Positions 17,682 through 33,027 of a stretch of 64,000 bases of DNA are shown piece after piece; positions within the stretch are counted from its first letter, which is position 1, and each line of letters begins with the position of its first letter. A program made the translations under genes and the position numbers. Source of the stretch: a virus; IMG/VR virus record IMGVR_UViG_3300043777_000365, positions 22,754 to 86,753 of that record. One strand, written 5' to 3'. Under the pieces are notes generated by a model that saw only the letters and a program-made list of their open reading frames with translations, was not told where the DNA came from and ran no database searches.

Positions 17682-18440
17682 ATGAAGAAGCTCGATTTGT
17701 CCGGTGAGAAGTTCGGTCAGCTCGTGGTCCTCGGACCCGGTGAGACGTTGCCCAACGGAAAAACGACCTGGCAATGCGGATGCAAGTGCGGCCACATCCG
17801 CGACTTCCGTACGAACGACCTCCGCAGCGGGAAGACCACCTCGTGTGGGTGCGCGAAGGTGGAGCGGATGAGGTCCGTTGGCCTCTCGCGCAAAGGCAAA
17901 CCAAGGCACGACATCGCACTCGACCTTGTCGGGAGAACGTTCGGTCGCCTCGTGGTGCTCGAGCGGGGCCCGAACAACTCGCACAACAAGACGACGTGGA
18001 TCTGCCGTTGCGTCTGCGGCGCGGAGCGCGCTTTTCTCACTGCCCTCTTGGTGAGCGGCAAGACGAGCTCGTGTGGATGTCGCCGAACAGACAGCGCCGT
18101 GCAAATGGGCACCGCGAACCTCCGACATGGTCACGCCAGACACGAAACCATCGTTGTCGACAAACACACTCCCGAGTACGCCGTTTGGAGAGGCATGAAG
18201 GCCCGCTGCTACAACCCAAGAACTTGGAACTTCCGCGACTACGGTGGCCGAGGGATCCGCATCTGCGAGCGGTGGCTGAACTCGTTCGAGAACTTCCTCG
18301 CAGACGTTGGGCCCCGTCCCTCGGCAAGCCACACCATCGATCGGTTCCCCAACAACGATGGGAATTACGAACCGGGGAACGTCCGGTGGGCGACGAAGCG
18401 AGAGCAAGCGAACAATAGGCGACATAGAAGCTCCCGTTAG
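17682..18440 (+). CDS. Homing endonuclease with duplicated Cys-rich adaptor domain, HNH type
   Basis: 252 aa, ATG at 17682 seven bases after TATAAT. Two copies of an adaptor: residues about 6-55 (GEKFGQLVVLGPGE, CGCKCGHIRDF, TSCGCAK) and about 80-130 (GRTFGRLVVLERGP, CRCVCGAERAF, SSCGCRR). The C-terminal nuclease part includes [53 protein letters not shown] and ATKREQANNRR. It is inserted between tube and sheath genes on the opposite strand and overlaps the sheath 3' end by four bases. Close relative of 60274-60978. Confidence 0.85.
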   Translation: MKKLDLSGEKFGQLVVLGPGETLPNGKTTWQCGCKCGHIRDFRTNDLRSGKTTSCGCAKVERMRSVGLSRKGKPRHDIALDLVGRTFGRLVVLERGPNNSHNKTTWICRCVCGAERAFLTALLVSGKTSSCGCRRTDSAVQMGTANLRHGHARHETIVVDKHTPEYAVWRGMKARCYNPRTWNFRDYGGRGIRICERWLNSFENFLADVGPRPSASHTIDRFPNNDGNYEPGNVRWATKREQANNRRHRSSR

Positions 18441-20725: not shown

Positions 20726-20890
20726 CGCGAAAGACTCCTACGGGGCGAGTTCGTCCGGGTGGACGGTTCCGCGGCTCCCTGGGGTCCACGCTGGTCTCGA
20801 TCGACCTGTCCGCCGTGGTAGCGGTGTTCGGGGGCTTGGCTTGGGGGAGAGAGTCGCGCGCGGAGGCCGGATCCGTCAAGGAGCCCACCT
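20726..20890 (-). promoter_or_regulatory. 5' leader of the sheath gene
   Basis: 165 bases without a gene. From upstream to downstream it contains palindrome copy 5 (just outside), the structured element (20784-20832), a run of mostly C/G sequence and the TAGGAG ribosome site. No clear -10 could be fixed. Confidence 0.5.
20784..20832 (-). ncRNA. Structured leader element shared with the capsid gene
   Basis: Nearly identical to 32909-32957. On the plus strand CCACG (20786-20790) pairs with CGTGG (20814-20818), and inside it GGTC (20793-20796) pairs with GACC (20803-20806) around a six-base loop. In the capsid copy the inner pair is GGCC/GGCC, a compensatory T-A to C-G change at identical spacing. 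Internal-loop bases (GCGGACA on the minus strand) are conserved. Confidence 0.55.
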
Positions 20891-20910
20891 TTGGAAACCC
20901 GGGTTTCCAA
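20891..20910. repeat. Dispersed 20-bp palindrome, copy 5
   Basis: Perfect copy between the sheath leader and the plus-strand gene at 20942, in a divergent intergenic region. Confidence 0.95.
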
Positions 20911-20941
20911 CCCCGCCCCCGAGCGCGGCATGATGCTCCCC

Positions 20942-21406
20942 ATGAGCACCAACGGGATCACCACACGGGACAAGAAGATGCCTCTGGAGGCCTACGTCCT
21001 CGCGCACGCGTGCGGCCGGCTCGTCGTCGGGGCGGCGTGGCAGGAGGATGAATGGCAGCCCATCCCGCCGACCATCGACCTGACCGGGCCGCACCTGCAC
21101 CGGGCGCCCCTCGTGCTCTTCCCCGCCTACGACCTGCGGGTGGACCTCGTGCGCAACGGCCCCGGCATCGCCCAGAACTTCCAGGTGCTGCCGCTCTTCA
21201 ACCTGCTCAACCCGGGGTCGGTCCGGGTCCTCCCCGACGACTGGCGCATGTCGATCATGCACTGCACCGGCGAGGAGCGGCGCGTGCTCGCCGCCCAGCT
21301 CGAGAACGTGCAGGTCCTCGTCGCCGACATGCGCGCGTCGCACGAGCGGGCCACCGCCGAAGGCGGCGGCGGCGGGGCCCCCCGCATCATCGTCCCGGGC
21401 CGCTAG
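20942..21406 (+). CDS. Unknown plus-strand protein
   Basis: 154 aa, ATG at 20942 seven bases after CATGAT (20929-20934). EAYVLAHACGRLVVGAAWQE, a beta-rich core (LVLFPAYDLRVDLV) and a His/Cys near the C-terminus (MSIMHCTGEE) can be seen, ending in a Gly run. Single gene running against the late operon; its stop overlaps that of the next minus gene. No family recognised. Confidence 0.6.
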   Translation: MSTNGITTRDKKMPLEAYVLAHACGRLVVGAAWQEDEWQPIPPTIDLTGPHLHRAPLVLFPAYDLRVDLVRNGPGIAQNFQVLPLFNLLNPGSVRVLPDDWRMSIMHCTGEERRVLAAQLENVQVLVADMRASHERATAEGGGGGAPRIIVPGR

Positions 21407-22281
21407 ACCGCCTCGTCCTCGGCGGTGGAGGCGCTCGCGTAGGCGGGGGTCTCCACGTCGACGGTGACGTTCGGCGTCATGAGCGCGTACGCGACGAGCC
21501 GCACGACGTTGAAGTCGAGGCGGACCTTGTGCACGGCCGAGCGCCGGTTGCGGATGGCTCCGTCGTCGCGCTCCCACTCCGACCCGGTCAGCGTGAAGCG
21601 CGCCGTCTCCCCGTAGTAGTCGGGCATCACCAGGAGGGTGCCGCCGACCCCGTCGGCCGGGACGAGCATCTGCTCCACCATGCTCATCAGCCCGCGCAGG
21701 AGGCCGAGCTGCGACGCGTAGACGTGGAGGGTGACCTCCTCCGAGTGCGTCCACATCGGCACGACCACCGTGCCCGCGCCGTACACGTCGACGGTCGTGG
21801 CGTCCGGGTTGGGGGTGAAGCCGTGCGGCGTCTTCTCCACCGGCCCACCCGCGCACGTGATGGACGGGTAGACCATGTCGGTCTCGGGGTCGGGGTCGTC
21901 GACGTAGAAGTTGCCCGGGGGCAGCAGCCCGGAGGCGGCCGGGGGCAGCCCCGGCTGGGCGGACGGGTCCACCTTGTTGCCCCGCCGCCGGTAGGGGACC
22001 TCGGTCAGGTACCGCCCGAGCGCCTGCAGGGCGCACGTGCGCCCGTCCACCGGGGCGCTGCCGGGGTCGGCGATGAGCGGGAGCACGTTGCCGAGCAGCG
22101 TCCCGGAGGAGGTCTGGAACTGGTACTGGGCCCCCTGCGCGAGGATCTGCGAGTGGCCGGTGGGGACGGTGGCCGGCACGAGCGGCTGCGGGGGCATGCG
22201 CGCGGGGGGCCGCGGCGGCTGCGCGGCCGAGTCGTAGGGCCAGCGCGGGTCGCGCCTCGGCGGGTTGTAGGTCGGGCGCAC
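21403..22281 (-). CDS. Neck/tail-module structural protein, unknown
   Basis: 292 aa from GTG 22281 (MRPTYNPPRRDPRWPYDSAA). The start is chosen because TAAGCT (22289-22294) lies seven bases upstream and the frame further up runs through the palindrome. A Pro-rich N-terminus (about 35 aa) leads into beta-rich sequence and VTLHVYASQLGLLRGLMSMV and VHKVRLDFNVVRLVAYALMT. The position between sheath and tail-completion genes suggests a tail terminator or neck protein. This is inferred only. Confidence 0.55.
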   Translation of the reverse strand: MRPTYNPPRRDPRWPYDSAAQPPRPPARMPPQPLVPATVPTGHSQILAQGAQYQFQTSSGTLLGNVLPLIADPGSAPVDGRTCALQALGRYLTEVPYRRRGNKVDPSAQPGLPPAASGLLPPGNFYVDDPDPETDMVYPSITCAGGPVEKTPHGFTPNPDATTVDVYGAGTVVVPMWTHSEEVTLHVYASQLGLLRGLMSMVEQMLVPADGVGGTLLVMPDYYGETARFTLTGSEWERDDGAIRNRRSAVHKVRLDFNVVRLVAYALMTPNVTVDVETPAYASASTAEDEAV

Positions 22282-22288
22282 GCAGCAG

Positions 22289-22294
22289 AGCTTA
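22289..22294 (-). promoter_or_regulatory. Leaderless -10 box (TAAGCT)
   Basis: Seven bases before GTG 22281; palindrome copy 6 begins three bases upstream. A CATGAT box for the opposite strand lies on the other side of the palindrome. Confidence 0.6.
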
Positions 22295-22296
22295 CC

Positions 22297-22316
22297 TTGG
22301 AAACCCGGGTTTCCAA
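22297..22316. repeat. Dispersed 20-bp palindrome, copy 6
   Basis: Perfect copy centred between two divergent leaderless promoters (TAAGCT at 22289-22294 minus, CATGAT at 22322-22327 plus), so one bound protein could affect both. Confidence 0.95.
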
Positions 22317-22334
22317 GACGGCATGATGGGACCC

Positions 22335-22715
22335 ATGCCGAAGAACCCACCGGATGACATCTTGGGCGAGGTGATGTCGGGGGCTTGCCTCGCGACGTAC
22401 GAAGGGTTCGTCCGGTGGGACGCTGCGCTCGACGACCGGGCCGTCCACCACTGCGGCCACTGCATGGGGCACTTCGTGTACGTGCCGAAGGGAGCACCCC
22501 GCCGGATGAGCGACGCGTCCAACGTCGAGGGCTTGCGCATCCACGACCTCGGCGACGAGTGCTTCGTCGTGACCAGGCGGCACCGGATGGTCCACTTCTC
22601 CCTCACCGACGAGCTGCTCGGCCGCAGGTCCCCGGTCTTCGAGGATTCGGACATCGTCTCCGTGACCACGACGCTGGCTGCGGCCGAGGCCGCGCTCAGG
22701 CTCGCGTCCCTCTAG
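22335..22715 (+). CDS. Unknown plus-strand protein with Cys/His cluster
   Basis: 126 aa, ATG at 22335 seven bases after CATGAT. HHCGHCMGHFVYVPKGAPRR suggests a metal site. Then GLRIHDLGDECFVVTRRHRM and a helical C-terminus. Isolated between minus-strand genes. Function unknown. Confidence 0.6.
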   Translation: MPKNPPDDILGEVMSGACLATYEGFVRWDAALDDRAVHHCGHCMGHFVYVPKGAPRRMSDASNVEGLRIHDLGDECFVVTRRHRMVHFSLTDELLGRRSPVFEDSDIVSVTTTLAAAEAALRLASL

Positions 22716-22736
22716 CGCACCTTCTTGAGCTCCCGC

Positions 22737-23354
22737 TCAGAGCGAGAGTCGGAGCTGCGCGTGCCTCTCGATGTACTCGGCGAGGGCCCGAAGCTTGCTC
22801 GGGCTGCCTTTCATGTGGCCCTCGGCGAGATTGCAATGCGTGCACAAGAATCCACGGACCTGCCTGGTTACGTGATCATGGTCGAGGTGAGTACCCCTCC
22901 CAGGCTTCAGCTTGTCTCTACAAGCCGCGCATCGTCCCTTCTGTTTTTCCAAGAGCCTCGCTTGGTCCTCCTTGGATATCCCGTACACGATCTTCCGCTT
23001 GGTGGCGGCTTGGCGCTCCGTGTGTCCAGGGCGAGCTCGGTGGGCAGTCGCTGCACGTTGGGCGCAATCCAAACAGTTGCCCAACCACGTAGTCCCCTTT
23101 TTAGGCTGCCCTCTTCGCAGCGATCCGCACTTCGAGCATGACCTGAGAACACCTGGCGGAGGTCGAGGCTTCATCCCTTTTTCCCTCCGCTCTTGCTCCC
23201 GTTCCGCTCGGACCTTCACGGCGTTGGCCGGCACCTTGTACCAAGCTCGGCTCCAAGCCTTCCGGTACTCGCGGATGCAAGGTGAACAATGTCCTTGCGA
23301 GTCGCGCTCACTTCCACCGCACTTGCCGCACGGATGTCGTCTACGATCACTCAT
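22737..23354 (-). CDS. Endonuclease VII-type (HNH) homing endonuclease
   Basis: 205 aa, ATG at 23354, with GAGAGG five bases upstream. The N-terminus has two zinc-ribbon-like Cys pairs (CGKCGGSERDSQGHCSPC and CSKCGSLRRG). The C-terminal domain has the EndoVII signature: ISKEDQARLLEKQKGRCAAC, THLDHDHVTRQVRGFLCTHC, NLAEGHMKG. Base composition is less GC-rich than the neighbours. It sits after a tail-completion gene and is probably a mobile insertion rather than the phage's own packaging resolvase. Confidence 0.85.
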   Translation of the reverse strand: MSDRRRHPCGKCGGSERDSQGHCSPCIREYRKAWSRAWYKVPANAVKVRAEREQERREKGMKPRPPPGVLRSCSKCGSLRRGQPKKGTTWLGNCLDCAQRAATAHRARPGHTERQAATKRKIVYGISKEDQARLLEKQKGRCAACRDKLKPGRGTHLDHDHVTRQVRGFLCTHCNLAEGHMKGSPSKLRALAEYIERHAQLRLSL

Positions 23355-23420
23355 CGTCGCCTCTCATCCAGGTGATGGTCGGGCCCGGAGCGTTAGTAGC
23401 GCTGCCGGGCTCACTTCATT

Positions 23421-23972
23421 TTACTTCACCTTCGCCAACTCCCGCTCTACTTCCTCTTTGATGAACGTGGGCACCCTCTTTTCCGCCTTCTCCAAAATGC
23501 GAAGACCGGTACCTCCGAAGATGCCCTTGGCCTGCATGCTCTTGGCGATAGCCCAGGCTATGGACGTTGCCTCGGCCTTGCTGGCCTTCACTTGTCGAAC
23601 TCTCCCACTCGCGCTGGTAACGGTTCTCCCGCCCAAGCCTTTCCGTTGGACCCACTCTGTGAGCGCAGCGATGAGCTTACGACCGATCTTCACATGACCA
23701 GGCCGGACTCCTAAATCCACAAACGGTGCGTGCGGCGACGAGTTTTGGACGATGACCTCACCCTCGCTCTTCACCGGCTGCACGCGCCAGCCAGCTCGGT
23801 AGGCCCCCTTGTCGACGGGCATCCGCGAGCCGAAGGACGGGATGACGTCGGCGACGATGTGCTCGACGGTCTTGTGGCCGGCCGCGACGAGGCCCCGGAA
23901 CGCCGCCTCGCGGAGCCCGCCCTTGATGTCCTCGAGCATCACCCCGGCGTCCTTGAGCGAGTAACTCTTCAC
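23421..23972 (-). CDS. HK97 gp10-like tail/neck completion protein
   Basis: 183 aa, GTG at 23972 with TATGAT six bases upstream. It has the family layout: SRMPVDKGAYRAGWRVQPV, IVQNSSPHAPFVDLGVRPG, followed by an extended basic helical C-terminus. These proteins close the head-tail joint. The 3' half has lower GC than the 5' half, next to the inserted EndoVII gene. Confidence 0.65.
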   Translation of the reverse strand: MKSYSLKDAGVMLEDIKGGLREAAFRGLVAAGHKTVEHIVADVIPSFGSRMPVDKGAYRAGWRVQPVKSEGEVIVQNSSPHAPFVDLGVRPGHVKIGRKLIAALTEWVQRKGLGGRTVTSASGRVRQVKASKAEATSIAWAIAKSMQAKGIFGGTGLRILEKAEKRVPTFIKEEVERELAKVK

Positions 23973-23977
23973 CGAGG

Positions 23978-23984
23978 CATCATA
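23978..23984. promoter_or_regulatory. Overlapping divergent leaderless promoters
   Basis: The same bases read CATCAT on plus (six bases before ATG 23990) and TATGAT on minus (six bases before GTG 23972). Two starts are thus served by one mirror-like element of about 18 bases. Confidence 0.55.
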
Positions 23985-23989
23985 AGGGC

Positions 23990-24508
23990 ATGCCCAACAA
24001 CGTCGAGCACCCGTACCGACCCGAGCCCGTCGTCCAGCTCAGCTATCCCGGCCGAGCCCAGCTCGGGCTCATGGCCGCGGCGATCCTCGTGCTCGTCGGT
24101 TGGTGCGCGCTCGAGATGAACAAGGTCGGGCGACTCGAGCACCGGCTGGACGAGATGGCCGCGGCGCAAGCGGCGTGGCTGGCCAACTTCCCGCCGACGT
24201 CGTCCCACCCCTTGGCGATGACCGACGGCCTGGGGGTCCTGCACCTCGAAGAGGCCGCGGCGTTCAACAAGGAGGCCCACCCGACGAGCGGGGTCATCCT
24301 CTGGGTCACCGACGACGGAGACTACGAGACGCTGCACCTCCGGGGCCCGGGCAACGGCGGCGACATCTTGTTCACGCTCGCCAAGGGTGGGGTGCGGTCG
24401 GCTTCGCCGACCGACCTCGTCATGGGACCACCGTTCATCCCGGGGCAGGCCCTCAACCTTTCCTTCCAAACTCAGGGTGGGGCTCAGCCCTCGTCGCCCA
24501 GCCCGTAG
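23990..24508 (+). CDS. Unknown single-pass membrane protein
   Basis: 172 aa, ATG at 23990. One transmembrane segment at residues about 25-43 (AQLGLMAAAILVLVGWCALE) is followed by a short amphipathic helix and a soluble domain (HPTSGVILWVTDDGDYETLH). The divergent -10 is shared with the gp10-like gene. Its 3' end overlaps the next minus gene by 25 bases. No family recognised. Confidence 0.6.
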   Translation: MPNNVEHPYRPEPVVQLSYPGRAQLGLMAAAILVLVGWCALEMNKVGRLEHRLDEMAAAQAAWLANFPPTSSHPLAMTDGLGVLHLEEAAAFNKEAHPTSGVILWVTDDGDYETLHLRGPGNGGDILFTLAKGGVRSASPTDLVMGPPFIPGQALNLSFQTQGGAQPSSPSP

Positions 24509-25104
24509 GCGCTCGACCCGTCGCGCGCGGGGTCCTCCGAGATCCTCTCGAGCACCAGCCTCCACTGCACGCTGGTCTCGTCGAGCGCGGGCTGGGCCGC
24601 GAGCCGGTACTTCTGCCGCAGCGGCAGCCCCTCGTGGCGGCCGTCCTCGACGATCTCGTAGAAGAAGCTCACCGGCTGCGGGACGCGGTCGGCCGGGTGC
24701 GGCCCGCACGGGAGCAGCTGGACCGTCGGGCTCGACGCGTTCACCTCCTCGAACACCCCGGCCTTGACGCTGTAGAGCCCCGTGAGCTGGCTCTCGGTGA
24801 GGGTGGCGCTCACCTCCTCGAGCCTCACCGACCCCGTCGCCAGGTAGCCGGCCCCTCCCGCCTGGAACCCGACGGAGTCGAGCCCGACGACCTTGGGCGT
24901 GGGCAGGAGCTCGAACCGGTCCACCTCGTACGGGGTCCCGTCCCCGCGCTCGTTGCCGCCCCACCGCACCCACACGAGGAACACCCGGCGCGAGCGGGCC
25001 CCGAGCCGCACGGCCATCTGGCGGATGCGGTCGACGGGGCGGGCGAGCCGGTTGGCCAGGCTCCGGGTCGCCGCGCGCGGGGTGAGCGGCTTGGGCTCGG
25101 ACAT
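24484..25104 (-). CDS. Neck/connector-region protein, unknown
   Basis: 206 aa, ATG at 25104 with TACGCT six bases upstream. A basic N-terminus (RSLANRLARPVDRIRQMAVR) is followed by beta strands (RVFLVWVRWGGNERGD, YLATGSVRLEEVSATL, QKYRLAAQPALDETSVQW). It lies in the head-completion block before the gp10-like gene. A head-tail connector role is inferred from position. Confidence 0.55.
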   Translation of the reverse strand: MSEPKPLTPRAATRSLANRLARPVDRIRQMAVRLGARSRRVFLVWVRWGGNERGDGTPYEVDRFELLPTPKVVGLDSVGFQAGGAGYLATGSVRLEEVSATLTESQLTGLYSVKAGVFEEVNASSPTVQLLPCGPHPADRVPQPVSFFYEIVEDGRHEGLPLRQKYRLAAQPALDETSVQWRLVLERISEDPARDGSSAYGLGDEG

Positions 25105-25105
25105 C

Positions 25106-25243
25106 TCAGAAGCGTACTGCGTCGTCGGACAGCTTGCTCCTCAACGTCGCCCGGAGGCATGCCCAGCAGCCAGCGACCCACCCGACGAACGTCGCCGAGT
25201 AGTACTCGCGGAAGGGGACCTTCCAGCCGAGCGAGGTCTTCAC
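25106..25243 (-). CDS. Small unknown protein (45 aa)
   Basis: GTG at 25243 overlaps the upstream stop (GTGA); it ends one base before the next ATG. MKTSLGWKVPFREYYSATFV, then GWVAGCWACLRATL and a short charged tail. Possibly a small membrane-associated peptide. Supported mainly by tight coupling on both sides. Confidence 0.5.
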   Translation of the reverse strand: MKTSLGWKVPFREYYSATFVGWVAGCWACLRATLRSKLSDDAVRF

Positions 25244-25479
25244 GCCGGCTCCAGGTCGACCGGCTCGTCCGCCGGCGGCTCGTGGGCCGCCTGGGGCTCC
25301 TCGAGCTTCTCGAGCGGGACGGGCTTGGGCTTCTGCCGGCCTTGGACCATGTCGCCGAGCTCGGAGCAGAGCCGGACCATCGCGGCGGTCACGTCGTGCC
25401 CGACCCCGACCGCGTCGACGCCCTCGACGCGGGCCTCGTGCTGCCCGTGCTCGTTCTTGGTGAAGACGACCTCGCTCAC
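25240..25479 (-). CDS. Small unknown protein (79 aa)
   Basis: GTG at 25479 overlaps the stop of the lipoprotein-like gene (GTGA). VVFTKNEHGQHEARVEGVDA is followed by a helix (DVTAAMVRLCSELGDMVQ) and a Pro/Glu-rich tail. No family recognised; part of the 25.1-25.8 kb chain of overlapping genes. Confidence 0.6.
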   Translation of the reverse strand: MSEVVFTKNEHGQHEARVEGVDAVGVGHDVTAAMVRLCSELGDMVQGRQKPKPVPLEKLEEPQAAHEPPADEPVDLEPA

Positions 25480-25844
25480 TTGGGGCTCGCTTTCTTGGCG
25501 GCCTTCTTGGCCTGGACGAACGGCGCCGGCTGGTACGCGGCCCCGGCCGGCGGGACGGTGCCTGCGTCGGCCTGGGAGGCCTCGAAGGACGCGACCACCT
25601 TCTCGAGGTCGGGGACGAGCGCCTCGACGAGGCCGCAGCCGACCTGGACGTCGGCCGCGACGATGCCCACCGGGGTCCCGGCCGGGATGACGCTGCCGGC
25701 GAGGGCGGCCGAGATGCAGGCCGTGTCCGCGTCGTTGAAGATCGCGTCCGCCTCCGCGACCTCCTTCGCCGTGCAGCCCATCCACGCCCCCCAAGCGACC
25801 ACCAAGAGCACGCACGCCGCCATGAAGCTCACCACGGTTTTCAT
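25476..25844 (-). CDS. Putative lipoprotein or secreted small protein
   Basis: 122 aa, ATG at 25844, AGAGGT four bases upstream. The N-terminus MKTVVSFMAACVLLVVAWGA followed by WMGC is a signal peptide with a weak lipobox. The mature part is helical (VAEADAIFNDADTACISAAL) with a second Cys pair and ends in Ala/Lys-rich sequence. A spanin or other envelope protein is possible, but there is no second partner gene to confirm that. Confidence 0.6.
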   Translation of the reverse strand: MKTVVSFMAACVLLVVAWGAWMGCTAKEVAEADAIFNDADTACISAALAGSVIPAGTPVGIVAADVQVGCGLVEALVPDLEKVVASFEASQADAGTVPPAGAAYQPAPFVQAKKAAKKASPK

Positions 25845-25884
25845 CTGGACCTCTTTCCTGAAGGTCGGGGTATAACAGCCCCGT

Positions 25885-26283
25885 TCAACCCACGCGAGCG
25901 TTGATGCCGCTTGCACCGATGCCGCCGAACCTCGCGTCGAACGGGTTGCGGTAGCAGCTCATGATCTGGAGCATGTCGTCGACGAAGAAGATGTACCGCT
26001 GCACGAGCTGCTCGAACTGCTGGGGGTTGATCTCGATGTCCCCGACCTTCGAGGCCACGAGGGTGTCCGTGTCGTCGAAGATGATCGCGTAGACCCGGTC
26101 GCACCGGTCGAGCCCCTCTCGGAGCAAGAACTCCGCGCTCGGGATGATGGCGTCCATCGCCGCCTCGAGGATGAAGAACGGCTCCATCGCGGCCGGGTTC
26201 CCCAAGAAATACGTCTGGGCCGCGCTCACGTTGGGCCAGCCACCGTGTTTCCGAACCCTTGCCTTCTCTTCCGGGGTGAGCAC
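25885..26283 (-). CDS. Unknown acidic protein (132 aa)
   Basis: GTG at 26283 with TAGCCT (26290-26295) six bases upstream. MLTPEEKARVRKHGGWPN, then FFILEAAMDAIIPSAEFLLR, VYAIIFDDTDTLVASKVGDI and helical FEQLVQRYIFFVDDMLQI. It is divergent from thyX, whose -10 is 11 bases away. No family recognised; probably a virion or accessory gene. Confidence 0.6.
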   Translation of the reverse strand: MLTPEEKARVRKHGGWPNVSAAQTYFLGNPAAMEPFFILEAAMDAIIPSAEFLLREGLDRCDRVYAIIFDDTDTLVASKVGDIEINPQQFEQLVQRYIFFVDDMLQIMSCYRNPFDARFGGIGASGINARVG

Positions 26284-26289
26284 GGGACG

Positions 26290-26311
26290 AGGCTACCACG
26301 CGCGGCATGAT
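26290..26311. promoter_or_regulatory. Divergent leaderless promoters upstream of thyX
   Basis: TAGCCT on minus (26290-26295) serves GTG 26283 and CATGAT on plus (26306-26311) serves ATG 26319. No palindrome copy is present between them. Confidence 0.55.
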
Positions 26312-26318
26312 GGGCCGC

Positions 26319-27134
26319 ATGGACACCCCGACCTCGTTCCGCCGCCATCTCCTCGACCACGGTTACCTGAAGCTCGTGGACGCTTGGGGGCGAGACGGGC
26401 TCGAGGAGGCGGTCGGCGAGGAGTCGATCATCGCGGCCGCGCGCATGTCGACGGGCAAGGGCTTCCTCGGGTGGGGTAAGTCGACATGTCGACTTTGTCG
26501 GTGGGAAGGTCAACCGGCGGACTTCCAAAGAGGCTGCCCAGGTTGTTCTCACGAAAAGACCTATGACTATCAACCTGGCGATGAGAAGCTCCTGCGCTTC
26601 CTCTACGAGAACAAGCACGCGACCCCGTTCGAGATGGCCGGAATCACCGTCGAGGTCATGGCTCCCATCTTCGTCTTCCGGGAATGGCACCGCCACCGCA
26701 CACAATCTTTCAATGAAATGAGCGCCCGCTACATCCCGCTCCCCGACGTGAACCACGTCCCCTCGGTCGATCGCCTGATGCTCAACTCGAAGACGAACAA
26801 GCAGGCGGGGACCGTTCAAGGCGCAGAAGAGCTGACCCCGGGGGTCGCCGAGCTCGACAGGCGGGAGCTCGAGGAGGAGTGGGCGAGGCAGGAGGCGTTC
26901 TACCAACGTCGGCTGAAGCGCGGGGTGCCGAAGGAGCTCGCGCGCACGCACATCGGGACGGGCCGCTACTCGCGCATGAGGGCGAGCGCGAACCTCCGCA
27001 ACTGGCTCGGCTTCGTGACGCTGCGCTCCGCCCCCGCCGCCATGTGGGAGATCCGGATGTACTCGGACGCGCTCGGCGAGCTCGTCGGGCAGCTCTTCCC
27101 GCGCACGTGGGCCCTCTTCCAGGAGAGGCGATGA
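26319..27134 (+). CDS. thyX: Flavin-dependent thymidylate synthase ThyX with zinc-ribbon insertion
   Basis: 271 aa, ATG at 26319 seven bases after CATGAT. The ThyX signature is clear: FREWHRHRTQSFNEMSARY near residues 123-141. IIAAARMSTGKG near residue 40 and KLLRFLYENKHATPFEMAG flank it, and the C-terminal RNWLGFVTLRSAPAAMWEIR completes the fold. It converts dUMP to dTMP with FADH2 and methylene-THF. Unusually, about 40 residues with CRLC and CPGC pairs are inserted between the AARMS strand and the following helix, a place where most ThyX proteins have a short loop. It starts a two-gene plus operon. Confidence 0.9.
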   Translation: MDTPTSFRRHLLDHGYLKLVDAWGRDGLEEAVGEESIIAAARMSTGKGFLGWGKSTCRLCRWEGQPADFQRGCPGCSHEKTYDYQPGDEKLLRFLYENKHATPFEMAGITVEVMAPIFVFREWHRHRTQSFNEMSARYIPLPDVNHVPSVDRLMLNSKTNKQAGTVQGAEELTPGVAELDRRELEEEWARQEAFYQRRLKRGVPKELARTHIGTGRYSRMRASANLRNWLGFVTLRSAPAAMWEIRMYSDALGELVGQLFPRTWALFQERR

Positions 27135-27298
27135 GCACCTGGAACGACGAGCAGTCGGCCAACTGGATCGTGGTGGGCCTCGCGCTCTTCCTGTTCGTCG
27201 CGACCTCGTGCGTGCAGTGCGCCGGCCCGTGCTCCTGGCTCATGTGGGAGCCGGTGACGGACCTGCCCGCCCGCTGCCTGCCTGGGACGGGTCGCTAG
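27131..27298 (+). CDS. Small membrane protein coupled to thyX
   Basis: 55 aa, ATG at 27131 overlapping the thyX stop (ATGA), with AGGAGAGG upstream. One hydrophobic segment at residues about 11-28 (NWIVVGLALFLFVATSCVQC) and four Cys. Ends overlapping the convergent 27295-27726 gene. Unknown. Confidence 0.55.
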   Translation: MSTWNDEQSANWIVVGLALFLFVATSCVQCAGPCSWLMWEPVTDLPARCLPGTGR

Positions 27299-27726
27299 AG
27301 CGAGTCGAACCGCCTCGGCGCCGCCTGCGGCCGCAGTGGGGCGATCGGCGGCGGGGGAACGGCCGACGGGGCGGCGAACGCCCGGACGATGCTCGGAGGC
27401 GGCAGCGCTGACTGCGGCACCCCGGCGTCCGCCGGCTGCACCGGCACCGTCAGCACCTCGTGCTCCCGGGTGTAGCCCTCGACGTACTGGCGCAGGCGCT
27501 CGAGGTCGTCGTGCTGCTGGCGCACCTCGGCCTGCGTCTCGAGGATGCTCTTGGTCAGCTCGAGGTAGCCGGCGCGCGCCCCTTCCTCGGGCTTGAACAC
27601 CGCCCCCACCGCCGTCACCAGCCCGGCCGCCGCGAGCAGCAGCGCCGCGTACCCGCGCAGGCTCGACGAGCGCGCGTGCCGCAGCGCCTCGAGCGCCGCC
27701 TCCTCCGCCTCCAAGACCTCGCCCAT
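27295..27726 (-). CDS. Single-pass membrane protein with coiled coil
   Basis: 143 aa, ATG at 27726, TAGGCT seven bases upstream. The N-terminal helix MGEVLEAEEAALEALRHARS is followed by a transmembrane segment (LRGYAALLLAAAGLVTAVGA, about residues 23-42), a Glu/Gln coiled coil (ILETQAEVRQQHDDLERLRQ) and a Pro-rich tail. i-spanin-like topology, but this is only inferred. Confidence 0.6.
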   Translation of the reverse strand: MGEVLEAEEAALEALRHARSSSLRGYAALLLAAAGLVTAVGAVFKPEEGARAGYLELTKSILETQAEVRQQHDDLERLRQYVEGYTREHEVLTVPVQPADAGVPQSALPPPSIVRAFAAPSAVPPPPIAPLRPQAAPRRFDSL

Positions 27727-27795
27727 GCCACCGAGCCTACCCCAAGCCCCGGCGCGAGCATTGCTAGCTCGCCCTCCCGGAGGCACGAAACCAAG

Positions 27796-27987
27796 ATGGT
27801 CAACCACCGGCAGCAGTGGCAGGCAGAGGTGCGCGCGCGGCAGCTCAGGCTCGCCAAGTGCGAGCAACTAGGGCACTTGTGGGACGCGGGGTTCTTCGGG
27901 AGGGAGGTGCGGTGCGACCGGTGCGGCGCCTGCGCCGACCCCCCGGCCGTCGGCGAGATGCCTCCCGCCGTTGGCGAGATGCCTTAG
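27796..27987 (+). CDS. Small zinc-finger-like protein
   Basis: 63 aa, ATG at 27796. The GGAGG upstream is rather distant (12 bases), so the start is uncertain. It has a basic helix (QWQAEVRARQLRLAKCEQLG) then REVRCDRCGACADPP. It ends with a tandem heptapeptide PPAVGEM repeated twice, from a direct DNA repeat. Convergent with 27984-28295. Confidence 0.5.
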   Translation: MVNHRQQWQAEVRARQLRLAKCEQLGHLWDAGFFGREVRCDRCGACADPPAVGEMPPAVGEMP

Positions 27988-28295
27988 CTCCCGACCACCC
28001 CGCCGCCCGACTGCCACGTGAACTCGCCCACCGGGCGCTTGGCCCGGCAGTGGGGGCACGTCAGCTGCCCGATCACCCCTGGGTTGCGGGCCATCTCCTT
28101 GGCCACGTCCTGGGCGAGCACCGACAGGATGCCGCACTGCTTGTGCACGACCGCGTCACGAACGGGCCGGGGGCCGGCCTGGGCTGGCTTAGGCGCGCCT
28201 GCGGCGTCGGCCTGGGGCTTTGCCGCGTCCGGGGCCGTCGGGGCTTCCTGGGGCGGGCTGGGGGCGGCGGGCGGGGGTGCTTTCGGGTCGGCCAT
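27984..28295 (-). CDS. Pro/Ala-rich protein with C-terminal CxxC
   Basis: 103 aa, ATG at 28295 with TACAGT six bases upstream. The N-terminal 45 residues are Pro/Ala rich. The folded part contains VVHKQCGILSVLAQDVAKEM and QLTCPHCRAKRPVGEF. Palindrome copy 7 is nine bases upstream of the -10. Function unknown. Confidence 0.55.
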   Translation of the reverse strand: MADPKAPPPAAPSPPQEAPTAPDAAKPQADAAGAPKPAQAGPRPVRDAVVHKQCGILSVLAQDVAKEMARNPGVIGQLTCPHCRAKRPVGEFTWQSGGGVVGS

Positions 28296-28449
28296 GGGGG
28301 GACTGTACACCAGCGTTGGAAGCCCGGGTTTCCAACCCGCGCGGCGGGACGCGGGGCGGGTCCGCGTGCACGACCACCCAATCGTTCGCGACCTCGCTCC
28401 ACGCGACGTCCTTGCGGAACGCCCAGGGTGGGTGCTCCGGGAAGCTCAC
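28189..28449 (-). CDS. Possible small gene reading through a palindrome
   Basis: 86-codon frame from GTG 28449, overlapping the upstream stop by GTGA. The first 35 residues look protein-like (MSFPEHPPWAFRKDVAWSEV, NDWVVVHADPPR). It then translates palindrome copy 7 (LETRASN) and continues in what may be only a shadow of the 27984-28295 gene. Weak call. Confidence 0.3.
   Translation of the reverse strand: MSFPEHPPWAFRKDVAWSEVANDWVVVHADPPRVPPRGLETRASNAGVQSPHGRPESTPARRPQPAPGSPDGPGRGKAPGRRRRRA
28316..28335. repeat. Dispersed palindrome, copy 7 (one mismatch)
   Basis: TTGGAAGCCCGGGTTTCCAA: one G for A. Upstream of the leaderless start at 28295. Confidence 0.9.
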
Positions 28450-28631
28450 GCGGGCTTGGGCCCGGGGCAGGTGCCTGGTCGGTCGGGGAGGTCGCCCGCG
28501 CAGAGGCAAGGTGGCCGATGCCCGACCTTTAGGCAGCACGGGCCGCCGCACGCGAGCTTCGTCCTGCACCACGGCCCCTCGCGGTTGTCGGTGGCGGGGG
28601 TGGGCCTCGGCCTCGTCGGGTCGGTGCTCAT
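28446..28631 (-). CDS. Small Cys-rich protein (61 aa)
   Basis: ATG at 28631 overlaps the upstream stop (ATGA). A Pro/Thr-rich start is followed by WCRTKLACGGPCCLKVGHRP and PCLCAGD, seven Cys that suggest metal binding. Part of a chain of coupled genes from 30500 down. Confidence 0.55.
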   Translation of the reverse strand: MSTDPTRPRPTPATDNREGPWCRTKLACGGPCCLKVGHRPPCLCAGDLPDRPGTCPGPKPA

Positions 28632-28933
28632 CGGCCGGTCCTCCGGATCTCCTCCAGGATGGCGCGGGCGCGACGCACCATGGCGGCCTGGTGGAGGTCG
28701 CTCATCGACCGCACCTCCATGCGGACCTCGGCCTCGCCGAGGTTGCGGACCGGACTCCGTTGGTGTTCGCCACCATGCTTGTGGCAGAGGAGGTCCCCCA
28801 CCGAATCGTCGGGGTAAACCTCGGCCGGCTCCTGGCAAAAGACGCAGGTGGCGAGGTTCCGGTTGTTGTGGAGGAACGCGAGCGCGGTCATCTCCGTGTT
28901 GAGGTCGAGGCTCCTGCGCAGCTCGTCGCTCAT
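28628..28933 (-). CDS. Small protein with CxxC and His pairs
   Basis: 101 aa, ATG at 28933 overlapping the upstream stop (ATGA). LNTEMTALAFLHNNRNLATC, VFCQEPAEVYPDD and LLCHKHGGEHQ suggest a zinc site made of CxxC and CxxH. A helical C-terminus follows (MVRRARAILEEIRRTGR). Function unknown. Confidence 0.6.
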   Translation of the reverse strand: MSDELRRSLDLNTEMTALAFLHNNRNLATCVFCQEPAEVYPDDSVGDLLCHKHGGEHQRSPVRNLGEAEVRMEVRSMSDLHQAAMVRRARAILEEIRRTGR

Positions 28934-29211
28934 CGGGAGAGCCCTCGACGCCGCAGCTCCTCGACGGCGTCGTCCACCTCGCGCTGCAACCGCCTGGCGA
29001 AGTTCCCGAGGTGGTCCGGGTTGAAGTCGTCCTCCGGCACACGGATGACCGCGCTGCACTCGTGCCGGGCCATGCGCACCTCCACGACGGCCGCGTGGAT
29101 CATGAGCGTCAAGAGGACCACGGCACATTCCCGTGGGGTCCAGTTCTTCGACCCAGACTCGAGCTGCACGACGAGCCTCAGCTTGGAGCAAACCTCGTTC
29201 ACGGTCGGCAT
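28930..29211 (-). CDS. Unknown helical protein (93 aa)
   Basis: ATG at 29211 overlaps the upstream stop. MPTVNEVCSKLRLVVQLESG, then a hydrophobic helix (CAVVLLTLMIHAAVVEVRMA) and an acidic helix (FARRLQREVDDAVEELRRRG). Translationally coupled in the chain 30500-28446. No family recognised. Confidence 0.6.
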   Translation of the reverse strand: MPTVNEVCSKLRLVVQLESGSKNWTPRECAVVLLTLMIHAAVVEVRMARHECSAVIRVPEDDFNPDHLGNFARRLQREVDDAVEELRRRGLSR

Positions 29212-30500
29212 CAGACCAGCTCCGGGTTCTTGAACAGCTCCGCGAACGTGAACGGTGGCGCGCTGACGGCCGGGTTCCACTGCTGCATCGCGGCGCAGTA
29301 CTTCGCCATGATGAGGTCCTGCGACTCGGGGGCGAGCCCGGACCACCTCCGCAGCTCGTCCCCCTCCAGCGTCGACGCGAGCCGCAGGCGCAGGTCGGGG
29401 CACGTCGGCAGGTGCTGCTCGCCGGGGATGCACCGGCAGGTCGACGACTTGCCGTGCCGGTCGGCAAGAACGGGTCCACCATCTCCAGTCCGGGTTGTGA
29501 TCGTGTTCATCGCCTCCAGGTTCTCGGGGGTGTTGGGCTTGGCGACGTAGGTCTTCACCGCCTCCTCCACCTGCCGCTGGACCACGTCCTTCAAAGCTCG
29601 CTCGGCCTTCTCGAACCTGCCCCTCCAATAATCCTCGTTCGTCGCGTGGAAAGCCGCCGTCTCGACCCAGTTGGTCGCGAACTTCTCGAGCATCGCCACG
29701 TAGTCGGCCGCCGGCCCGGGGATGTCCTTGAGGTTGGGGAACCACTTGGGCCGTAACGCCTCGACGATCTCCTCGGCCATCTTCCTCCGGTCTCGGTCGA
29801 TGTCCGCCTGCGGCTTGTCGAGCTGGCCGCTCGCGCTCTCGTCGACGAGGTATGCCGGGTATGCCGTGCGGCCGATCCCGCAGCGGTTGCACACCAGCAT
29901 CTTCCCGTCCTCCGTCGACCAGTCGTGCTGCTCGCACGGTCGCGACGGCTGCCTTTCAGGCTGGCTGACGTCGCCCCGCGCGAGCGAGTTTCCGTAGCCC
30001 TCGGCCCGACGACGCGCGGGCTCCCGGGCCATGACCTCCTCGAACTTCTCCTTCCAATACCTCGCCCCCTTCCAGTCACACTCGGGCACGTCGACGACGG
30101 TGGTCGCGTCCCCCATGTCGACGTGGACGGTGCACGGTGGCCCGCTTCGCCCCTCTAGGTAGAGGGTCACCCGATGGGGCATCGGGGTGCCAGCGTCCAC
30201 CGCGTAGAGGGTCACCCGATGGGGCATCGGGGTGCCAGCGTCCACCGCCCCCAGCGGGATCGGGACGCTGCCGACGATCCTCCCGTCGAGCGCGACGTGC
30301 ACCGCGGGCCCGTCCACCTTCGCCGGCTCCTCCCGCGGGTCCAGGTGGCGGAACAGCACCCACGTCCCCTCGAGCAGAGACGGCTGCCCCGTCCCGTCGA
30401 GCCCCGTCACGTACTCGAGCCCGTCCGACCTCGCGTCGTTCAGGAACTTGACCCTCGCCTCCCGAGAGGACCCGACGAACTGCTTGTACACGTAACCCAT
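29211..30500 (-). CDS. Unknown 429-aa protein with an internal 15-residue tandem repeat
   Basis: ATG at 30500 with GGAGG six bases upstream. The N-terminus (MGYVYKQFVGSSREARVKFL) leads to a perfect duplication of a 15-residue unit around AVDAGTPMPHRVTLY (residues about 85-114). Then a CEQHDWS...CNRCG metal-like stretch near residue 200, a long helical part, CRCIPGEQHLPTC near 365 and an aromatic C-terminus. First gene of the coupled chain down to 28446. Its promoter is probably the CATGAT at 30595-30600, giving a leader of about 90 bases. Function unknown. Confidence 0.6.
   Translation of the reverse strand: MGYVYKQFVGSSREARVKFLNDARSDGLEYVTGLDGTGQPSLLEGTWVLFRHLDPREEPAKVDGPAVHVALDGRIVGSVPIPLGAVDAGTPMPHRVTLYAVDAGTPMPHRVTLYLEGRSGPPCTVHVDMGDATTVVDVPECDWKGARYWKEKFEEVMAREPARRRAEGYGNSLARGDVSQPERQPSRPCEQHDWSTEDGKMLVCNRCGIGRTAYPAYLVDESASGQLDKPQADIDRDRRKMAEEIVEALRPKWFPNLKDIPGPAADYVAMLEKFATNWVETAAFHATNEDYWRGRFEKAERALKDVVQRQVEEAVKTYVAKPNTPENLEAMNTITTRTGDGGPVLADRHGKSSTCRCIPGEQHLPTCPDLRLRLASTLEGDELRRWSGLAPESQDLIMAKYCAAMQQWNPAVSAPPFTFAELFKNPELV
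30159..30248. repeat. 45-bp perfect tandem duplication
   Basis: Two adjacent copies, 30159-30203 and 30204-30248, in frame within the 429-aa gene. A recent slippage or duplication event is likely because no differences have accumulated. Confidence 0.9.
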
Positions 30501-30613
30501 TGCCTGCCTCCGACCCTGAAATAGGAAAGGCCGGCCGAGCAAACCGTTAGCGCCCAGGCCGGCCTGGCGCCCGGACCATCCGGCCGCCTCCCCCATCATG
30601 CCGCGAGGACCGC
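30501..30613 (-). promoter_or_regulatory. Leader with CATGAT box and GGCCGGCC palindromes
   Basis: 113 bases without a gene. CATGAT at 30595-30600 starts the region on the minus strand. A 14-base palindrome CCAGGCCGGCCTGG lies at 30554-30567 and a second GGCCGGCC at 30529-30536. A 10-codon frame with GGGGGAGG in front (MVRAPGRPGR) spans the first palindrome. Possible leader-peptide or hairpin control of the 429-aa gene. Confidence 0.4.
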
Positions 30614-31009
30614 TCAGCCCGCGGCCTCCGCCGCCTCGGCCGCCTGGTCGATCTCCTCGAGCTTCACCCCCTGCCGGCGGATGGACGGGATGTCGAAGTA
30701 CCTCTCGTCGAGCTCCTTGCCCTCGTTGATCTTGAACTGCCGGCCGCCGCGGCCGACGACGAGCTGCACCATCCCGTCCTGGTTCCGGGGCACCTTGGTC
30801 ACCCGGTACTTCCTCGGGAGGGGGACGGCGTCGACCCGCTCCTGCCGCTCCTGCTGGAAGGTGCGCTGCACCTCCTGGCGGGCGAGCGGGGGCAGCGGCT
30901 GGCGCGGGCCCCCGTTCATCCCGGAGCCGGACAGCTCCTGGTCGTCGGGGTTCCCGCTGCCCCCGCCCTCCTCGTACACCTGGTTCGGCTTGCGCTCCGC
31001 TCTCGGCAT
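30614..31009 (-). CDS. Unknown charged protein (131 aa)
   Basis: ATG at 31009 with CGGAGG eight bases upstream and TAGCTT further up. The N-terminal 45 residues are disordered (Gly/Pro/Gln-rich), followed by VDAVPLPRKYRVTKVPRNQD, MVQLVVGRGGRQFKINEGKE and an acidic helical tail. Located just below the capsid gene; possibly a head accessory protein. Confidence 0.6.
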   Translation of the reverse strand: MPRAERKPNQVYEEGGGSGNPDDQELSGSGMNGGPRQPLPPLARQEVQRTFQQERQERVDAVPLPRKYRVTKVPRNQDGMVQLVVGRGGRQFKINEGKELDERYFDIPSIRRQGVKLEEIDQAAEAAEAAG

Positions 31010-31044
31010 GTTCGTGGCCTCCGGAGGACGAAGCTACCACGCGG

Positions 31045-31050
31045 CATGCT
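31045..31050 (+). promoter_or_regulatory. Leaderless -10 box (CATGCT)
   Basis: GCGGCATGCTGG seven bases before ATG 31058. Divergent to the TAGCTT of the 31009 gene. Confidence 0.5.
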
Positions 31051-31057
31051 GGTGGGC

Positions 31058-31300
31058 ATGGGAGATGTCCACGCGAGCGTCTGCATCTTCTGCCTCCGGC
31101 CCGAGGGCGACGCCCGCGCCTGGTGCCCTGACAACCCCGGCCGCGGCTGCACCTACGGGCTCGCCCACGAGCACCCGGCCGGGCCGAGGCCGAAGCCCAA
31201 GACGGCCACCGTCGCCAACGCGAGGTGCCTCAAGTGCGGGCTCCACCCCAAGAACCCGGCCTACCGCGTCATCGTGTGCGCCCACGAGCACGCGGCTTGA
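31058..31300 (+). CDS. Small Cys-rich zinc-binding-like protein
   Basis: 80 aa, ATG at 31058. It has CIFCLRPEGDARAWC, then GRGCTYGLAHEH, and near the end CLKCGLHPKNPAYRVIVCAH. Two CxxC-type pairs with His suggest a zinc ribbon. Plus-strand single gene convergent with the capsid gene. Unknown role. Confidence 0.6.
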   Translation: MGDVHASVCIFCLRPEGDARAWCPDNPGRGCTYGLAHEHPAGPRPKPKTATVANARCLKCGLHPKNPAYRVIVCAHEHAA

Positions 31301-31309
31301 ACCAAGGGT

Positions 31310-31329
31310 TTGGAAACCCGGGTTTCCAA
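31310..31329. repeat. Dispersed 20-bp palindrome, copy 8
   Basis: Perfect copy between convergent genes, so it cannot be part of a promoter for either. It abuts the U-tract of the capsid terminator. Confidence 0.95.
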
Positions 31330-31370
31330 AAAGCACGAGGGTCCGGAGGCCGTGGCCGCCGAGCCCTCGT
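31328..31370 (-). terminator. Rho-independent-type terminator after the capsid gene
   Basis: On the minus strand ACGAGGG (from 31370) pairs with CCCTCGT (ending 31335) around a 22-base GC-rich loop, then GC and five T. It lies 49 bases past the capsid stop. Confidence 0.6.
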
Positions 31371-31418
31371 CCGGCCATGCGCCGGTTGCCTAGCTCAGAC
31401 AGAAGCTAAGTAGCTATG

Positions 31419-32825
31419 TCACGTGGCACTTTGTAGGACCACGGCCCGCTTGAAGAGGGCCGTGCTGGTCGTCGCCCCGAGGTCCGTCGGCACCGGGAAG
31501 CAGGTGCTGATGGACCAGGTCGCGCGGACCATGTCCTGCAGTCGGTCGATCGGGCTCGCGATGACCAGGCGGATGCGGTCCGTCTGGATCGAGATGCCCT
31601 GGTTGACGACGTCGAACTCGCCCACCTTGCCCGTGACGCCGGCCTCCGAGACGTACTGGTTCTCGTTGACCCAGCGCTCGTAGAGGGCGCCGCGGCCCGT
31701 GATGAGGGTCTGCGAGATCTGCACCCCCGTGTAGTTGATGATCTCGCTGCCGAGCTCCTGCGCGTACAGCGCCGGCTGCCCGGAGACCGTGAGCGTCTGG
31801 TTGCCCGTGTTGATGGGCGCCGGCGACTCCGTGTTCATGAAGAACTTGATGCCGACCTGCGGGACGGGGAAGCCGTTGATGTAGCTCTCCGACTGGGGCA
31901 GGGCGGTGTAAAGGCGCTGGTAGGCCGGGTCCGCGAACAGCTGGGCCGCGACGTTCGGGGCCAGGTGCGCGTGGTAGAAGCCGTCCTCGTGCGGCTGGAC
32001 GTTGTTCGCCCGGAGCACGGTGGCCGCGTTCAGGAAGTCCTGCATCACGACGATGTCGGCGCTGCTGATGGCGTCGATGCTGTTGCCGCCGCCCGACCGG
32101 ATGACCACCGGGGCGTTGTTGCTGTAGATGGGCGTGCGGACCGCGAGCGCCGAGCCGATCTGCGCGGACAGCTGGAGGATGCCCGGGCCGTTCAGCGGGT
32201 CGGCCGGGTTCAGGCTCGTGTACCCGATGACGTTCGCCGTCACCGTCACCGTCGGGCTGACGATGATGCTGATGGGCAGCGGGTTGGCCGAGGACACGCC
32301 CACCGGGCGCACCGTGGAGCCCATCTGCACGACCGTCGTGAACCCGTTGAGCGACGCCACGTTGAGGACCGTGTCGGTCGTCAGCTGGGTCGCCGTCGTG
32401 AGCGTCTGCCCGGACAGGTACGCCTGGAAGAGCGCGTCGCGGGAGACCCGGTTCACCGTCTGCCCGGCCTGCAGGCCGAGCTGCTGCAGGTTCCTCATGA
32501 ACTGGTCGGCGTTCGACCAGACCGAGGTCGGCATGTGCGTGTCGATGCCGCTGCCGTAGCGCAGGAGGTTGACGTACCACTGCTCGTACTGGAGCGCCTG
32601 CGGCTGCGGGTCCTGCCCCGCGATGAGCGGGGTGATGGCCGGCGCGAGCAGGCTCGGGCGGGTCTCGATGGTCTGCACGCCGGTGTGCGCCGGCCACTCC
32701 TCGGCCATCGCCTCGGTGCGGTACAGGAGGGCGGGGTAGAGGGCGTCGTGGAACGCGCGCTCGAGCAGGCCGGTCTGCACCAGCTGGACGATCGACGGGG
32801 GGATGCCGAGGATTACACCGGCCAT
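31419..32825 (-). CDS. Major capsid protein (candidate)
   Basis: 468 aa, ATG at 32825 with TAGGAG upstream. Features are a helical N-terminus (IVQLVQTGLLERAFHDALYP), long beta-rich middle, and a C-terminal ISIQTDRIRLVIASPIDRLQ segment as in HK97-fold P domains. Supporting context: it follows a scaffold-like gene, has its own structured leader shared only with the sheath gene, and a terminator after it, as expected for the most expressed virion gene. Identification rests on size, context and fold impression, not on a database match. Confidence 0.75.
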   Translation of the reverse strand: MAGVILGIPPSIVQLVQTGLLERAFHDALYPALLYRTEAMAEEWPAHTGVQTIETRPSLLAPAITPLIAGQDPQPQALQYEQWYVNLLRYGSGIDTHMPTSVWSNADQFMRNLQQLGLQAGQTVNRVSRDALFQAYLSGQTLTTATQLTTDTVLNVASLNGFTTVVQMGSTVRPVGVSSANPLPISIIVSPTVTVTANVIGYTSLNPADPLNGPGILQLSAQIGSALAVRTPIYSNNAPVVIRSGGGNSIDAISSADIVVMQDFLNAATVLRANNVQPHEDGFYHAHLAPNVAAQLFADPAYQRLYTALPQSESYINGFPVPQVGIKFFMNTESPAPINTGNQTLTVSGQPALYAQELGSEIINYTGVQISQTLITGRGALYERWVNENQYVSEAGVTGKVGEFDVVNQGISIQTDRIRLVIASPIDRLQDMVRATWSISTCFPVPTDLGATTSTALFKRAVVLQSAT

Positions 32826-33027
32826 GGTTGTGGACTCCTAACTTCGGGATGAACGACGACGAGAGAGGGCTTTCGCTCCTCGATCCGCTCGCTCACTTCG
32901 CCCCGGGAGTCCACGCTGGCCGCTGGGGGCCTGTCCGCCGTGGTCGCGGTGTTGGGGGTCCGTGCTCTTACGTTGGCGCCAGAATGCGGGCAGCCCCGCG
33001 GCTAAGTCAAGCGCCGGGGTTGCCCCG
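32826..33027 (-). promoter_or_regulatory. 5' leader of the capsid gene
   Basis: 202 bases without a gene. It holds the structured element (32909-32957) and a TTAGGAGTCC ribosome site shared in style with the sheath leader. No palindrome copy and no clear -10 seen. Confidence 0.5.
32909..32957 (-). ncRNA. Structured leader element shared with the sheath gene
   Basis: On the plus strand CCACG (32911-32915) pairs with CGTGG (32939-32943), and GGCC (32918-32921) pairs with GGCC (32928-32931). Spacing of all four arms is identical to the sheath copy at 20784-20832, and the inner stem shows a compensatory change. Confidence 0.55.

Follow-up and report, generated by a model that had tools for sequence, protein, structure and literature searches.

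The window analysed here, 64,000 nucleotides of viral DNA, spans positions 22754-86753 of IMG/VR record IMGVR_UViG_3300043777_000365 (86,753 bp). In it, the genes for the major capsid protein (MCP) and the tail sheath are each preceded by a copy of the same short element, a likely pseudoknot in the mRNA leader. A tailed phage needs capsid, scaffold and sheath subunits by the hundred and in the right proportions, and beyond a few model phages little is known of how their production is controlled at the RNA level. The two genes are:

31419-32825, minus strand: MCP gene, 468 amino acids, identified by phrog_1357 (major head protein) and by tblastn to annotated MCPs of isolate phages
18437-20725, minus strand: tail sheath gene, 762 amino acids, identified by comparing its AlphaFold (AF2) model with T4 gp18 and other sheaths

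The tblastn matches of the MCP are the annotated MCPs of Streptomyces phage Kromp and of Komagataeibacter phages. The sheath gene gave by sequence a weak phrog match of unknown function and no Pfam match, and tblastn of it against isolate phages returned no match. Its model, built from a 10-sequence alignment (mean predicted local distance difference test score, pLDDT, 62), best matches T4 gp18 (VIA Z 15.8, root mean square deviation 4.3 over 204 residues), with many other sheaths also matched, and a baseplate wedge protein is encoded nearby; judged from the model, the gene is a contractile tail sheath. An earlier annotation made from the letters alone (the original prediction) had spoken of sheath and capsid leaders, which is correct on both counts. 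Megablast of the window region against isolate phages gave no match, and no prophage carrying the window capsid was found in 84,980 genomes.

The blocks at 20784-20832 and 32909-32957 are identical at 40 of 49 bases, and a leader-against-leader BLAST scores 54.5 bits, compared with 31.0 bits for the best among 40 Markov-shuffled windows. Exactly two copies are present in the entire record when up to 3 mismatches are allowed, with no third. Both the near-identity of the blocks and their restriction to the capsid and sheath leaders, as originally proposed, are thus borne out. A recent duplication of a leader with a strong promoter, leaving shared ancestry and no RNA function, would explain why the two copies of a genome resemble each other more closely than they resemble those of other phages; it is contradicted by the compensatory changes found across divergent phages in all three helices of the element (see below), and we regard it as the least probable of the explanations considered. 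These helices, an outer helix P1, a stem P2 and a pseudoknot (PK) helix, were assigned from the sequence, or for P1 of the sheath leader from a computed fold, with the further support given in each line:

32911-32943, minus strand: P2 and apical region of the MCP leader, comprising P2 5' strand CCACG (32943-32939), PK 3' strand GCGG (32938-32935), inner stem GGCC/GGCC (32931-32918) and P2 3' strand CGTGG (32915-32911); stem compensated in relatives
32946-32949, minus strand: PK 5' strand CCGC of the MCP leader, pairing with GCGG 32938-32935; covarying counterpart in 76 family members
32901-32957, minus strand: P1 of the MCP leader, CCCC (32957-32954) with GGGG (32904-32901); family P1 test
20786-20818, minus strand: P2 and apical region of the sheath leader, comprising P2 5' strand CCACG (20818-20814), PK 3' strand GCGG (20813-20810), inner stem GGTC/GACC (20806-20793) and P2 3' strand CGTGG (20790-20786); stem compensated in relatives
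20821-20824, minus strand: PK 5' strand CCGC of the sheath leader, pairing with GCGG 20813-20810; family covariation
20774-20835, minus strand: P1 of the sheath leader, GC.CCC (20835-20830) with GGG.GC (20779-20774); family P1 test

The outer CCACG/CGTGG and inner GGYC/GRCC stems of the original prediction, their equal spacing and the T-A/C-G exchange were confirmed for the window copies, on the minus strand. By inspection, the CCGC/GCGG pairing is perfect in both copies, and variation within the clade does not go beyond CCGC to CCG. The conserved core is likely to consist of the P2 stem plus the CCGC/GCGG pairing, that is, an H-type pseudoknot closed by P1. On this view the window copies would have their inner hairpin inserted into the loop.

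Two relatives (G002 and G003; sheath 62% and 61%, capsid 56% and 57% identical to the window) have a copy of the element ahead of the capsid gene and another ahead of the sheath gene, and a scan found it nowhere else in them. Its copies read CCGAC-gcgggcagatc-GTCGG and CCGAC-gcgggcagaata-GTCGG in the former, and CCGGC-gcgggtaaaaca-GCCGG and CCGGC-gcgggtaaaaaca-GCCGG in the latter. A third relative, L003, whose capsid is 82% identical to that of the window, has CCACG-gcgggcggcatccagcag-CGTGG, and L082 has CCGAC-gcgggtagaaca-GTCGG before its capsid gene. All P2 stems of the window clade are paired, as CCACG/CGTGG, CCGAC/GTCGG or CCGGC/GCCGG, so the outer stem changes on both sides. Relatives that conserve the sequence with the pairing broken were looked for, and those compared keep the pairing. 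The inner stem is confined to the window copies, being missing or of another kind in the relatives compared, and of the seven-base bulge GCGGACA, thought to be invariant, GCGG alone is so, the relatives having GCGGGC or GCGGGY. Of the fold as first drawn, then, the outer stem stands, the inner stem applies to the window copies, and what was drawn as a bulge probably serves as a pseudoknot strand, paired with CCGC upstream of the outer stem. The pattern AACACCGCNACCACGGCGG was also tried in IMG/VR and set aside, 11 of its 12 matches being chance coding matches.

A search of IMG/VR with an alignment of five capsid proteins yielded 80 related loci, and most of their capsid leaders hold one form of the element: a variable P1, ACGN, 1-6 nt, P2 (4-6 bp), one base, N'CGG, U-N-AA-C/U-A, the returning P2 strand and G. 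Approximately 68 further elements have this P1-pseudoknot-P2 form. A covariance model of the family core (R1), run over 1.38 Mb, matched almost only upstream of capsid genes; over 19 whole records (1.2 Mb) it gave one, at most two, strong matches per record, and all strong matches checked precede an MCP, scaffold or sheath gene. Two exact 20-nt patterns retrieved 5 and 44 further stretches from IMG/VR, in which the legible downstream genes encode capsid or scaffold, or the match lies inside the first scaffold codons. Matches of the latter kind (L180, L196, L207, L209, L214) may partly be coding coincidence and were not relied on. Copies at scaffold genes are present in L152, L153, L157, L160, L162, L165 and L045, and L143 has the element at both its MCP and its sheath gene. 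A strict form of the motif occurs in 37 of 55 leaders; shuffling leaves 2.0 on average, and the antisense strand has 3. As a negative control, the 20-nt core was searched in 84,980 bacterial and archaeal genomes; none of its 28 matches was seen at head genes, and the sole full-model match among them, in an archaeal region without phage genes, was judged to be chance. Among isolates, Arthrobacter phage vB_ArS-ArV2 carries ACGCGTTC-CAGAC-GGCGGTCAACA-GTCTG-G between its protease and scaffold genes, and Mycobacterium phage FF47 has a likely copy, found by reading only and not reported by R1. In twelve other isolate phages with related capsids the element was found neither by R1 nor by reading, and a search for an isolate with a CACC form of the core gave nothing convincing.

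Three loci hold tandem copies (L119 8777-8932, L175 2100-2199 and L209 5433-5533); in L209 one copy abuts the Shine-Dalgarno (SD) sequence and the second lies inside the first scaffold codons. The capsid leaders of L099, L102, L106, L130, L142 and L150 show a CGCGGU-N-AAA type or GGCGUGACCGAAAA loop on a CCAC/GTGG-like stem with no ACGN strand, and are perhaps another subclass. In L116, L119, L125, L132, L141, L143 and L145 a CUGCGAAG ... UUCGCAG helix was seen by reading between the element and the start codon, often ending directly at the SD (GAGG).

The fold is supported by the pairing of all three helices across the family. In 28 leaders P2 is 100% paired, with 24 both-sided changes against 9.2 in shuffled controls and a covariation of 0.536 against 0.188, and controls with slid strands are 20-46% paired. 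The PK helix, CGN:N'CG, joins the conserved ACGN to the start of the loop, and was recognised from the co-occurrence of ACGT with ACGG, ACGG with CCGG and ACGA with TCGG. A script scoring it in 76 elements found 74 paired (63 C-G, 6 U-A, 3 U-G, 1 G-C and 1 A-U), which none of 10,000 shuffles reached; the exceptions, L156 and L217, are parsing errors by inspection. In a sequence-only alignment of 31 cores, which omits L122, L119 and L123 with their misaligned tails, 217 of 217 P2 and PK cells are paired, with 29 both-sided changes against 9.5 shuffled, and slid controls 21-72% paired. For P1, the two flanks of an element pair better with each other than with flanks taken from other elements (-12.3 vs -9.3 kcal/mol; 0 of 5000 permutations; z -9.4). 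These changes in P2 and PK, together with P1, support the earlier suggestion that genes in high demand have an RNA under selection in their leaders, and do so much more strongly than the window by itself could show. None of the 4227 families of Rfam 15 matches the window at gathering score, none is convincing at E <= 5 in 14 further loci, and no description of the motif was found in the literature searched, although it may be described elsewhere. Judged from these comparisons, the element is a previously unlisted family of leader pseudoknot RNA under selection.

Upstream of each window copy lies a promoter-like site, both of them consensus matches and not mapped promoters:

32981-33010, minus strand: promoter-like site of the MCP gene, TTGACT (33010-33005), 18 nt, CATTCT (32986-32981); conserved in L003
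20850-20879, minus strand: promoter-like site of the sheath gene, TTGACG (20879-20874), 18 nt, GACTCT (20855-20850); read from the letters and supported by TTGAC enrichment

The equivalent position in L003 reads TTGACG-N18-CATCCT. The gap from the second hexamer to the element is ~37 nt in the capsid leader and ~31 nt in the sheath leader. TTGAC occurs within 150 nt upstream in 16 of 76 element-bearing leaders, where 6.1 are expected and the maximum among 200 shuffles is 14; 7 of the 8 window-clade leaders have it, 46-62 nt from the sampled edge. With such a site upstream, the element should be transcribed and thus lie in the leader rather than at the promoter, which speaks against its being a DNA promoter element, an outcome named at the outset as one to look for. 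A related proposal, an operator acting as DNA, in which a dimeric protein binds the inverted repeat, can draw on the promoter-proximal position and on the fact that a selected inverted repeat would also change on both sides. However, the spacing of the arms ranges from ~10 to 23 nt, so that half-site spacing is not fixed, the strands of the PK helix lack dyad symmetry with P2, the sequences paired in P1 are unrelated, and some copies lie inside scaffold coding starts, far from promoter-like sites; we consider a DNA-level operator or promoter element very improbable. The closeness of the element to an upstream promoter-like site in the window clade, and its retention across phages, would suit an antitermination or anti-pausing RNA that acts processively on RNA polymerase in late operons, as the put RNAs of HK022 do, these being leader RNAs with conserved unpaired letters (PMC9378689). 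Against this, the next gene, ~0.8-1.2 kb further downstream, often has a second copy in front of it that such a mechanism would not need (L152, L153, L157, L160, L162), terminator-like sites are no commoner than chance around the window genes, and put consists of two stem-loops rather than a 45-60-nt pseudoknot. This possibility, ranked second among the rivals, is a rather poor prospect.

Other features were observed in the window. A near-perfect 20-bp palindrome, TTGGAAACCCGGGTTTCCAA, has 19 copies in the record, 15 of them intergenic and several beside a -10-like CATCATGCC; it occurs at window positions 1329, 6800, 9686, 20891, 22297, 28316, 31310, 36248, 37903, 38774, 41596, 49070, 56992, 58618 and 62024, with four more sites to the left of the window. 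One of the copies precedes the sheath promoter, and related forms are present in L003 and not in G002, G003 or L082. The palindrome has the look of an operator or promoter element that serves a whole regulon of the window phage. A 948-amino-acid open reading frame at 6825-9671 (minus strand) matches a head protein in PHROG and, below threshold, a Pfam intein splicing entry at residues 397-722; it is possibly an intein-bearing head protein. A 39-nt repeat rich in CCCCACAATCACA is present in three related copies at 59875-60910.

The best hint at how the element could act is a possible alternative helix between the MCP copy and the SD:

32830-32838, minus strand: SD region of the MCP gene, GGAGUCCAC, perfectly complementary to GUGGACUCC at 32914-32906

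GUGGACUCC consists of the P2 3' strand plus the next 5 nt, and its helix with GGAGUCCAC, a perfect 9 bp, is possibly an alternative one that hides the SD. L003 keeps the alternative pairing as GGGACUCC/GGAGUCCC, and L112, L148, L149, L123 and L142 have perfect alternative helices of 6 to 10 bp, mostly with different letters. Over 48 leaders, SD pairing is stronger with the leader's own partner than with swapped ones (-11.7 vs -10.4 kcal/mol; z -3.5; 6 of 5000 permutations); the effect is real but modest on average and concentrated in a subset of leaders. The SD is predicted to be hidden in about ten leaders, most of the thirteen tried, by a nested folding program that cannot score pseudoknots and on leaders preselected for SD pairing. 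In several scaffold leaders, L152 and L153 among them, the P1 3' strand itself contains the SD.

On balance, the sequence comparisons tip slightly towards a cis-acting leader pseudoknot that tunes the expression of bulk structural proteins (MCP, scaffold and sheath). Expression would be set after the start of transcription, most likely at translation initiation. The apical N'CGGU-N-AA is conserved while the stems vary freely, which suggests that some trans-acting factor recognises the pseudoknot in its folded state. For about ten leaders besides that of the window MCP, and for the latter too, formation of P2 would leave the SD free, and upon loss of P2 its 3' strand and flank would hide the SD. 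In the favoured reading the pseudoknot would be the sensed state. More tentatively, and with the odds somewhat against it, the leaders could form a widespread switch-like class in which one pseudoknot design and a common trans-acting factor, by making the SD accessible or masking it, coordinate the production of capsid, scaffold and sheath in unrelated capsid lineages. The main rival to translational tuning is protection of the mRNA, whereby a 5'-proximal pseudoknot would block decay that depends on the 5' end (of the RNase J or RppH/RNase E type) or mark a cleavage site. The element is always found on the highest-demand genes, begins ~25-35 nt past the expected start site in the window clade and occurs in the tandem copies described above, all of which would fit a stabiliser. 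The conserved apical letters, however, imply specific recognition over mere obstruction, and ribosomes would unfold those copies that lie at the SD or within the first scaffold codons; a role in mRNA protection is accordingly unlikely, if less so than the other alternatives.

Several points weigh against translational tuning by a pseudoknot family as set out here. The SD alternative is strong in a subset only, other leaders pairing no better than swapped partners do, and scaffold copies often abut the SD while those of MCP genes are 44-117 nt away from the start codon, on its upstream side; one mechanism at translation may therefore not suit every copy. Related sequences enter the covariation counts, with seeds picked by reading, and the counts are not independent events; the slid and swapped controls keep this relatedness. 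Single-element minimum free energy z-scores are no better than those of shuffles, which is expected for a small pseudoknot and is not support. R1, with filters off, scores the window-clade copies at background, so the family membership of these copies rests on topology and position, and it is by topology and homologous position, not model score, that the window copies appear to be a divergent subclass.

A conserved pseudoknot on exactly the capsid, scaffold and sheath genes suggests an undiscovered RNA-binding factor or ligand, and its presence in the isolate ArV2, and possibly in FF47, makes this control of structural genes testable. The element also provides a sequence handle on the head-gene operons of uncultivated phages.

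Translational riboswitches and the leader pseudoknots of ribosomal protein genes combine a P1-closed pseudoknot with a 3' strand able to pair with the SD instead. The present family shares the P1-closed pseudoknot, and in a subset of its leaders the 3' strand may likewise pair with the SD; it differs in that its targets are virion protein genes and in having no Rfam match. The HK022 put RNA, ~70 nt with two stem-loops in the early operons, acts on RNA polymerase (PMC9378689). Like the present element it is a structured RNA that acts in cis close to phage promoters, keeps certain unpaired positions conserved and has two copies per genome, whereas the element described here stands before late head and sheath genes as a single P1-PK-P2 unit, 45-60 nt long. 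In the gene 32 operator of T4 and RB69, a leader pseudoknot 5' of the SD is bound by gp32, and its structure is kept while the sequence has diverged (PMC535899). Membership in that operator family was considered and rejected: the gene, the downstream UUAAA repeats and P1 all differ, the operator serving a single gene autoregulated by its own single-stranded DNA-binding protein, with UUAAA repeats downstream, unlike the present element with its unrelated structural genes (MCP, scaffold and sheath), outer P1, conserved N'CGGUNAA loop and a factor that is a candidate only. The gene 32 operator is still the closest system in kind, since there too a phage mRNA for a highly made protein has an H-type pseudoknot in its leader, 5' of the SD.

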